Assembly: GCA_005880915.1 (NCBI GenBank)
Contig: VBIW01000037.1
Location: forward strand, 1 to 64,000
DNA length: 64,000 nucleotides
Source of the DNA: Chloroflexota bacterium
GTDB lineage: Bacteria > Chloroflexota > Dormibacteria > Dormibacterales > Dormibacteraceae
Direction of reading: 5' to 3'
Of this stretch, positions 6,254-23,319 are shown piece by piece. Both the position numbers and the translations under genes were made by a program. Positions within the stretch are counted from its first letter, which is position 1. Each line of letters starts with the position of its first letter. The notes beneath the pieces were generated by a model. The model was given only the letters and a program-made list of their open reading frames with translations, was not told where the DNA came from and made no database searches.

Positions 6254-7225
6254 TTAGGGAATGTTGCGTTTCAGGCCCCGAATGTAGGCTCGAGTTTTAC
6301 GTTCGATACCGATGAGCGTCGCGCCCGCCGCCGAGAGCACGAGCTCCCACGCGCCGGGATAAGCCACGACCTCACCGCCGAACTCTGACTTGAAAATCCC
6401 GATGCCGTGCCACCGATGCTCGTCACCGGCGCCGGGTGGCGGCACTCCCCACAGGTCGAAGTCGGTGCAGCCCGCCTCGGCGGCCGACGATATGGCCGAC
6501 CACCAAGCGAGGTCGTTGCCCATCAGCTCACGATGCCTGCCGCTCCGGCCCGCGAACAGGCTGTACGCACGTCCGCCATGGCGCGCGACCAGGACGGTGG
6601 CGAGGGGCTCGCGCTTTTCGGGCGCGAACGCGGTGTAAGTGCGGCACCACGGAAGAAGCTCGAGCAACAGCTCGTAGTAGCGGCGGTCCGGCAGGTGGAT
6701 CGATTCACGGCGCTCGACAGCGGCCGACTGGTGCGCAAGCTCGGCAGCGTCCTTGCCCTCTTCGACGATGACGCCACGCTTGAGCCCGGCGCGAATGTTG
6801 TAGCGGCGCCCGTGACGAAACGTCGCGAGCAGCTCGTTCGGCGGCATCAACGTGACGATGCGCGTGTGCTGAGGTTGGATTGGAGCGATTTTCTTGAAGC
6901 CTTTTGCCGCCAGCACTTCGCCGAAAGTCTCAGGCGCTTCGGGCTCGACGACAAGTCGTGCCACGCCTGAATTGCGCGCCCAGGCCACCAGCGAGGCGAG
7001 AGTTTCTTCCGAGGCCGGCACCGGTCCACGCGGGACATACGCTTCCTGGGTCGGACCGACTTTGCGAACTTGAATGCTGGCCATCGCGGCGCTCGGGAGC
7101 CTTACGCGCTCAACCGTCCATCCGGACCGGATTTGCACCTCGCCCCAGGCCCACGTCTGGAGCAAAGGCACTTGCGGTGCGAGGTCGTCGAGCTCGCCGT
7201 CCCATCGTGCGGACTCAGAGCTCAT
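6254..7225 (-). CDS. FemAB-family (peptidoglycan bridge) aminoacyltransferase-like protein
   Basis: QTWAWGEVQIRSGW, GRRYNIRAGLKRGV, LWGVPPPGAGDEHRWHGIGIFKSEFGGEVVAYPGAWELVLS. Confidence 0.85.
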   Translation of the reverse strand: MSSESARWDGELDDLAPQVPLLQTWAWGEVQIRSGWTVERVRLPSAAMASIQVRKVGPTQEAYVPRGPVPASEETLASLVAWARNSGVARLVVEPEAPETFGEVLAAKGFKKIAPIQPQHTRIVTLMPPNELLATFRHGRRYNIRAGLKRGVIVEEGKDAAELAHQSAAVERRESIHLPDRRYYELLLELLPWCRTYTAFAPEKREPLATVLVARHGGRAYSLFAGRSGRHRELMGNDLAWWSAISSAAEAGCTDFDLWGVPPPGAGDEHRWHGIGIFKSEFGGEVVAYPGAWELVLSAAGATLIGIERKTRAYIRGLKRNIP

Positions 7226-7842
7226 CCCGGTCCGACGTCCGTCACGAGCGCGGCCTCCAGGTGAGCGATGTCGTTGACTCCTGCGATGACCGTGCGTCCG
7301 TCGCGCTTCTCGATCAGAGAGATCGACGCGTTCTGGATTTTGAATGGAAACAGGCCGTGGCTCGGCCTGCCGACCACGCGGTGCAGGGCGATCTGGATCA
7401 CGCCACCGTGCGTGACGACCAGAACATCACCTTGAGGATGCCCGGCGAGAATCGCTTCCAGCGCGGCGCCAACCCTCGCGTCGAACTGCTCGGCGCCCTC
7501 GCCACCCGGCACGGCGTCCCAGTCCGGCTCCTCGACCCACCTCGACCATTCCTCTGGATAACGCACGGCGATCTCTTCTGTCGTCAGCCCCTCCCACTCG
7601 CCAAGAAAGATCTCGCGCAGCGAAGACGCCGCCTCGGGCCGCATGCGGACGCTCGGCGCGAGGATCTCCGCCGTCTCAAACGCTCGCTTCAGGTCGCTGG
7701 TGTAGAAGCCGGCGAGTGTGCGGCCGGCGAGCCTGCGGGCCAAAAGCTCGGCCTGGCGGCGACCTTCGGGCGAAAGGGGCGGGTCGAGCTGGCCCTGGAT
7801 GCGGTGCTCCTGGTTCCAGGTCGACTGCCCGTGGCGGATCAA
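7222..7842 (-). CDS. Histidine phosphatase family (phosphoglycerate mutase-like)
   Basis: IRHGQSTWNQEHRIQGQLDPPLSPEGRRQAELLARRL; VVTHGGVIQIAL. Confidence 0.93.
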   Translation of the reverse strand: MIRHGQSTWNQEHRIQGQLDPPLSPEGRRQAELLARRLAGRTLAGFYTSDLKRAFETAEILAPSVRMRPEAASSLREIFLGEWEGLTTEEIAVRYPEEWSRWVEEPDWDAVPGGEGAEQFDARVGAALEAILAGHPQGDVLVVTHGGVIQIALHRVVGRPSHGLFPFKIQNASISLIEKRDGRTVIAGVNDIAHLEAALVTDVGPG

Positions 7843-7976
7843 GACGAGGCGCGTCGGGGCCGGGCGAGGGGGTATTGGAAAGTCCGGAGGCTCCGGGCGC
7901 GCTGCTCTGATCTCGATGCCTATACTAACTTTCTCTTTAATCCCGATCGGGCTGGGCCGATCTCAGGAGAAGACTG

Positions 7977-21071: not shown

Positions 21072-21597
21072 CCCACCTTCTCCTTCGCCATACCGCCCCA
21101 CGCGGCACAGATATGCCCCGCTGGACCTGTGGAGCGAAGTCGCTGCCGCTCTGCAAATCCTGTGGACAACCCCGATCCTTCTCTCCAGCTGCCGGCAACC
21201 GCGGCCTCGCCCGAGCAGCGACCCCAAGTTCGCGCCCCGGACGACCCCGGATTCAACCGAAGCTCTTCAAGCATGAGCTCCGCCTCCTTGGTCCCTGTGG
21301 AAAAGAGCGGATCGGATTTCCACAGGCTGGCGGTGCCGACCTGTCCGAAATCCACCATCCGGTCGATCCCGAAATATGGAAGCGGGGTTGTACGACTAGG
21401 TGTTAGTTACTAGTAAATGTTTGCTGAGACTGAGTGGCGCAATTCGTACTGTGACTGTGGATAGACGCTTTGGCCTTGCTGCTTCCGGCCGGGGAATATA
21501 GCACCGGCCTGTGGATACCGCAAGGCCACCGCGCACACAATGAAGTGATAGAAGCGCTATAACAAGTCGCCCGCGTTGCCTCCGCTAGACTGGCCCG
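21072..21597. other. Candidate oriC
   Basis: Non-coding between dnaA and rpmH with DnaA-box-like sites tgtggacaa 21161, tgtggaaaa 21296, atttccaca 21316, tgtggatag 21456, tgtggatac 21510 and an AT-rich stretch about 21391-21427. Confidence 0.75.
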
Positions 21598-21729
21598 ATC
21601 AAACGGACCTATCAACCCAAGAAAAGATATCGCCGGCGCGTCCACGGATTCTTGCGCCGGATGAGCGCTCGTGGCGGGGTCCGCGTGCTCCGCAATCGCC
21701 GCCGCAAGGGCCGCGCGCGGCTGACCTAG
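21598..21729 (+). CDS. rpmH: Ribosomal protein bL34 (apparent ATC start; absent from the ORF track)
   Basis: (I/M)[42 protein letters not shown], directly upstream of rnpA. Confidence 0.95.
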
Positions 21730-22131: not shown

Positions 22132-22341
22132 ATGACCAAGCTCTTCCTGATTTTGATCCGCGGTTATCAGCTGTCTTTCGCGAAGATCCTCCCGCCTTCC
22201 TGCCGCTACTACCCGTCGTGCTCGCACTACACGTACGAGGCGATCGAGCGCTACGGCTGGCTCAGGGGTGGATGGATGGGTGCGGCGCGAATCGCCCGCT
22301 GTCACCCATTCGCGCGTGGCGGCTACGACCCGGTGCCCTGA
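22132..22341 (+). CDS. yidD: Membrane protein insertion efficiency factor YidD
   Basis: [35 protein letters not shown]...[17 protein letters not shown]. Confidence 0.96.
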
Positions 22342-22356
22342 CAAGGAGGCACTGAC

Positions 22357-23319
22357 ATCCCACTGGCCTCGTTCACAGACATCTTCAAGTTATTCAGCCC
22401 GATCCACGACGCGTGGTGGGCGATCTTCGGCGTGACCCTGAACAGCGCGCTCGGCTTCATCTACTCGCACGTGCAGGGGATTCCGGTGGTCAGCGCGATC
22501 GGCGCCTACGGCGTCGCGATCATCGTCCTGACGATCATCATCCGGCTGCTGCTGGCTCCGCTGCAGCAGTTTCAGCTCGTAACTCAGCGCAAGACCCTGG
22601 TCGAGCAGCGAAAGCTCGCGCCGCAGGTCGCCGAGCTCCGCAAGAAGTACAAGAAGGACCCGCAGCGCCTGAACACCGAGATGATGAAGATGTACCAGGA
22701 GCATGGGGTCAACCCGTTGGGCGGCCTGATCGGCTGTCTGCCACTGGTCGTCCAGCTCCCGATCCTCACCGCCCTCTATTACGTGTTCACGGGCTTCGCC
22801 CGCAGCCATGACGTGGCGACGCACTTTCTCTTCATTCCGAACCTGAACGACAACCCGAACCATCACCTGATGTTCGCGGGGCTGCCGATCCCGGTTCTGG
22901 CCTACATCGTGTTCCCGCTGCTTGCCGCGATCACGACCTTGATCCAGTCGAGGATGCTGCAGATGCCGGCTCCGCCCAACCCGACCGAGCAGGAGCAGCA
23001 AACCCTGCAGATGCAGCGCACGATGGTTTTGATCTCGCCGCTCATGATCGGCTGGTTCGCCCTCAACGTTCCGGCCGGCCTCGGCCTTTACTGGTTCGTC
23101 GGGAACTGCGTCAGTATCATTCAGCAGAGCTTCGTCGTCGGGTGGGGGAACGTGCTGCCGGCCAGGTTCCGCAGGGCGGCCGGGGGAGCGCCTTTGCTGC
23201 CCAGCAAGGGGGCGACCAACGGTCAGAAGGCCCTTCCGCCGACCAGCGCTAACTTGAACAGCTCAAAGAAGGCTAAGAACAAAGCGCAAAGACAAGGCAA
23301 GGAGAGTGAACGCAGGTGA
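22357..23319 (+). CDS. yidC: Membrane protein insertase YidC (apparent ATC start)
   Basis: SD aaggagg 22343-22349, 7 nt, ATC CCA CTG GCC TCG TTC; PLASFTDIFKLFSPIHDAWWAIFGVTLN...MKMYQEHGVNPLGGLIGCLPLVVQLPILTALYYV. Confidence 0.92.
   Translation: MPLASFTDIFKLFSPIHDAWWAIFGVTLNSALGFIYSHVQGIPVVSAIGAYGVAIIVLTIIIRLLLAPLQQFQLVTQRKTLVEQRKLAPQVAELRKKYKKDPQRLNTEMMKMYQEHGVNPLGGLIGCLPLVVQLPILTALYYVFTGFARSHDVATHFLFIPNLNDNPNHHLMFAGLPIPVLAYIVFPLLAAITTLIQSRMLQMPAPPNPTEQEQQTLQMQRTMVLISPLMIGWFALNVPAGLGLYWFVGNCVSIIQQSFVVGWGNVLPARFRRAAGGAPLLPSKGATNGQKALPPTSANLNSSKKAKNKAQRQGKESERR

Follow-up and report, generated by a model that had tools for sequence, protein, structure and literature searches.

A probable AUC start codon for yidC within a conserved set of weak starts in the Dormibacteria

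To our knowledge, few bacterial genes have start codons other than AUG, GUG and UUG, and codons outside this set are rejected by IF3. The yidC locus studied here raises the question of whether translation of a gene can begin at an ATC codon, as the initial annotation of this DNA had claimed, and whether such a start is peculiar to one genome. The window, i.e. the whole stretch of 64,000 nucleotides that was analysed, belongs to a draft MAG (4.13 Mb in 228 contigs), whose closest named relatives are soil MAGs labelled Candidatus Dormibacterota or 'Chloroflexi'. Both parts of the claim, the lack of a canonical start and an ATC ideally placed after a Shine-Dalgarno (SD) motif, hold when the locus is read again, with the following features:

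22132..22341, + strand: yidD, ATG start, ending 15 nt 5' of the yidC ATC (PF01809, TIGR00278)
22339-22341, + strand: TGA stop codon of yidD
22343..22349, + strand: SD motif AAGGAGG of yidC, 7 nt 5' of the ATC
22357..22359, + strand: ATC, probable start codon of yidC, with ATC, ATT or ATA at this column in 29 of 39 family relatives; coding constraint begins there
22357..23319, + strand: yidC, 320 aa counted from the ATC (PF02096, TIGR03592)
22363..22365, + strand: CTG, competing start candidate, 13 nt after the SD motif; a conserved Leu column, CTC, CTA, TTC or TCC in many relatives
22432..22434, + strand: GTG, first canonical in-frame codon, codon +25 after the ATC; not conserved as a start

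After the TGA of yidD the frame reads QGGTD-IPLASFTDIFKLFSPIHDAWWAIFG-V..., and ATG, GTG and TTG are all absent before GTG 22432. The protein read from 22357 is YidC (PF02096, E 3e-49, with a match to TIGR03592), the PF02096 match beginning at residue 51. Its assignment to the YidC/Oxa1/Alb3 insertases is given by a 60KD_IMP domain above the cut-off and by the gene order rpmH-rnpA-yidD-yidC-jag, in which yidC is flanked by yidD and jag/khpB and rnpA was assigned from position and sequence, without a family search.

The start column of yidC was compared in 39 named relatives of the same Dormibacteria family (Candidatus Dormibacterota). It holds ATC in 18, ATT in 4 and ATA in 7 of them (29 ATH codons), and with five relatives of a CTG type the start is non-canonical in 34 of the 39. 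The other five carry ATG (3) or GTG (2), which indicates that the weak start is dispensable. The window coming from a draft MAG, an assembly or base error could have masked an ATG; since independent relatives show ATC, ATT or ATA at the same place, such an error has a negligible probability, as the initial annotation had anticipated for a single base.

An SD-like core, with a match of 4-7 nt, lies 5-9 nt before the ATH codon in nearly all the ATH relatives and is weaker in L050 and L086; the cores of L050 (a weak GGGGA), L080, L083 and L084, which the scripted SD search or pattern missed, were judged by eye. The match is short in about half of the relatives, being GGAG only, or weaker in the case of L050 and L086. 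In the five remaining non-canonical relatives (L049, L059, L060, L062 and L073), GGAG is found approximately 7-8 nt before a CTG located two codons downstream, and this CTG is likely the start since the SD motif is shifted to suit it. Three of these five also have an ATC or ATT, which may simply be an isoleucine codon. The equivalent CTG 22363 was described as a possible alternative start in the window, and the five SD-shifted relatives speak in its favor; however, its distance of 13 nt from the SD motif was verified, making it a poor rival there, and many ATH relatives carry CTC, CTA, TTC or TCC at this codon, so that translation of yidC from CTG 22363 is very unlikely.

A start at GTG 22432, with the upstream segment left untranslated, would have the merit of using the first canonical codon in the frame. 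This codon is not conserved and has no suitably placed SD motif, and the next canonical codon ranges from +6 to +77 among the relatives, being at +53 to +77 in several, which is too late for a full YidC. Approximately 20 relatives have a stop in the same frame 5-21 codons before the start column, and no canonical codon separates the two. Furthermore, the segment preceding the GTG is conserved as protein. In seven relatives of equal length, the differences by codon position were 83/89/99 upstream of the ATH codon versus 108/52/180 after it, and the segment after it gave a pN of 0.15 and a pS of 0.46 (pN/pS 0.34) in the seven-genome codon test. The window and its nearest relative, L048, differ at 3 sites, all of them third codon positions, and residues P15, I16 and W20 are invariant. 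The alignment of YidC N-termini suggested by the initial annotation thus reveals a conserved ATH column followed by a constrained protein segment, and because the codon-position constraint begins at the ATH codon, the coding region can be placed from there, which renders the GTG start highly improbable.

YidC could also be made by stop readthrough or frameshift out of yidD, both genes being in one frame in the window with the TGA between them. The frame relation of yidD and yidC nevertheless varies among the relatives, several of which have extra stops or longer gaps, and we give this route hardly any credit. Taken together, the sequence comparisons make AUC 22357 most probably the start of yidC. 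Concerning RNA structure that would occlude this start, no special folding was seen (z 0.23).

The initial annotation had also pointed to a second ATC initiator close to rpmH, which proved to be the start of rpmH itself:

21586..21591, + strand: TAGACT, candidate -10 box located 6 nt 5' of the rpmH ATC
21598..21729, + strand: rpmH (L34), ATC start at 21598-21600

The context reads TAG-act-ggc-ccg-ATC-KRTYQP, where the in-frame stop TAG precedes the ATC by four codons. In the family of the window, the rpmH start is ATC in 33 of 36 members and ATG in 3. A second family of the class has 20 ATC, 7 ATA, 1 CTG and 2 ATG (n=30), a third has ATC in both members (2/2), and a fourth has 13 ATG, 1 GTG and 1 ATC (n=15). 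ATG or GTG is the rpmH start at all 30 loci sampled in other lineages of the phylum, which were handled as other classes, and outgroups from the Firmicutes and Chloroflexota likewise have ATG or GTG, with a few TTG. Judged from this distribution, the AUC start of rpmH is older than that of yidC. The conservation of the ATC starts across the family (yidC) and the class (rpmH) excludes chance.

At rpmH the signal before the start is of another kind. The hexamer TACACT (TAGACT in the window) is found at the same distance of 6 nt before the ATC in most members of the genus of the window; given this hexamer the rpmH mRNA of the genus may be a leaderless AUC message, and 21598 may be regarded as a candidate leaderless AUC start. 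In the window and in L032-L047, TANNNT is enriched 6-10 nt before ATG or GTG and SD motifs are not, a pattern which suggests that many mRNAs of this genome are leaderless. The idea that ATC starts after SD motifs would be a wide trend was not sustained: no enrichment of SD motifs before ATC was found on the contig, where the SD signal is weak even for ATG and GTG.

Weak starts are also present in a few other genes of the lineage. A canonical start of infC is absent in all 30 class members compared (30/30), where ATA, ATC or ATT is used, the fourth family having ACG as its conserved start. In our data the infC start is an ATA at L285:1480-1482, outside the window. Two further genes were identified:

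7225..7923, - strand: histidine-phosphatase gene, ATH start (ATA 7923, ATC 7917 or ATC 7911)
contig 71889-73055 (L032:7889-9055), beyond the window: DUF1015 gene, starting at ACG within the genus and at ATA or ATC in other genera

For the histidine-phosphatase gene, a canonical start before the RHG motif is absent in several of the compared relatives. A TAGTAT box is located just upstream of its ATH start, which is conserved (window 7225-7965, minus strand). The DUF1015 column holds ACG, ATA or ATC in the family of the window, and it can be taken as a start since it is ATG in one genus there and GTG, TTG or CTG in another family. This start overlaps the stop of an upstream frame. Approximately 28 genes of the ribosomal operon have canonical starts, as do most of the roughly 60 contig genes tested, about 3 being affected besides rpmH in this heuristic and partial census of genes covered by at least 3 relatives. 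The automated start scans over-flagged genes where reading frames overlap; manual inspection of a large share of the flagged genes showed a canonical start in most of the genes so inspected. The use of AUC starts at the level of the lineage, which the initial annotation considered worth testing, is consequently borne out by the relatives in a narrower form, limited to a gene subset (yidC, rpmH, infC, the histidine phosphatase and DUF1015). As the start column accepts ATC, ATT, ATA, ACG and CTG, the conserved trait is the weak start and not AUC itself.

The initiation machinery of this genome looks ordinary. The initiator tRNA has the usual CAU anticodon, the genome encodes a complete IF3 of typical form, which scores 181 bits against a solved IF3, and no variant initiator tRNA was seen among the tRNAs inspected (30 of 56 tRNA loci). 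Pattern hits for an initiator-like tRNA with a GAU or UAU anticodon (GGGCTGATAACCC and GGGCTTATAACCC) turned out not to be tRNAs. With such an initiator tRNA and IF3, the simplest mechanism would be that fMet-tRNA(CAU) pairs with AUC imperfectly at the third base and that, at yidC, the strong SD motif 7 nt upstream makes up for the weak codon. The weak start would limit the synthesis of YidC and make it responsive to IF3, and would probably be maintained for this reason; the same scheme could extend to rpmH, infC and a few further genes of the lineage.

The main rival to a regulatory role is neutral tolerance, in which initiation is permissive and ATG drifts to ATH, ACG or CTG to no regulatory end. 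The wandering of the codon among ATC, ATT, ATA, ACG and CTG is in agreement with this view, as are the unrelated nature of the genes hit (about 3 of the roughly 60 well-covered contig genes besides rpmH) and the leaderless-type signal, with little SD signal, at the canonical starts of the genome. Frequent reversion to ATG would then be expected, whereas rpmH is non-canonical in 33/36 and 28/30 members of two families; moreover, the approximately 28 neighbouring ribosomal-protein genes are canonical, the placement of the SD motif follows the yidC start, and both IF3 and the initiator tRNA are normal-looking. We consider neutral drift rather unlikely and favor selection on weakness, since the weak start persists at the same genes while the codon letters change. 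That IF3 restrains these weak starts, with a regulatory benefit, appears on balance probable from the analysis as a whole. As a wider and more tentative proposal, the Dormibacteria might possess an IF3-governed regulon in which infC, rpmH, yidC and a few others keep AUH, ACG or CUG, ribosome assembly and membrane insertion being tuned by the IF3 level, including AUC on the apparently leaderless rpmH mRNA in the genus of the window.

A class-wide set of weak starts comprising a ribosomal protein and YidC would make the number of genes controlled by IF3 by way of the start codon directly testable. In practice, rpmH, yidC and infC will be overlooked or called too short throughout the lineage by gene callers limited to ATG, GTG and TTG. 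An earlier report of such starts in Dormibacteria was not found in the open-access literature; what is new are the genes concerned (rpmH and yidC) and the depth of conservation, the principle being already known.

Weak starts of this kind are disfavored by IF3 in E. coli and Streptomyces, infC being autoregulated and sigR repressed (PMC5472188). Like these genes, yidC combines a forced non-canonical start, conservation in the lineage and a strong SD motif nearby with an IF3 and an ordinary initiator tRNA. The AUU, AUC or AUA start of infC, through which IF3 is autoregulated, is of the same AUH class, and infC is also non-canonical in the lineage studied here; in contrast, any control of yidC or rpmH would have to act in trans, as neither gene encodes IF3. 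Streptomyces sigR resembles yidC in its extended SD and in a start mismatched at the third base and kept through the lineage (GTC, with GTT in two species), but gene, codon and phylum differ, and the repression by IF3 was shown for sigR whereas it is inferred for yidC (PMC5472188). In S. aureus, reporters with conserved AUA and AUU starts and extended SDs reached, in poor medium, approximately 10% of the expression obtained with AUG; the Staphylococcus genes ccpN (AUA) and cvfC1 (AUU) thus share a conserved AUH start and an extended SD with our case, although they encode regulatory or small proteins and the Dormibacteria cases are a ribosomal protein and the insertase YidC (PMC13009471). Finally, Listeria has fixed non-canonical starts in six of 2265 core genes, among them rnhC (ATC) and infC (ATT), so that ATC as a conserved bacterial start is common to both lineages, in different genes (PMC13068326).
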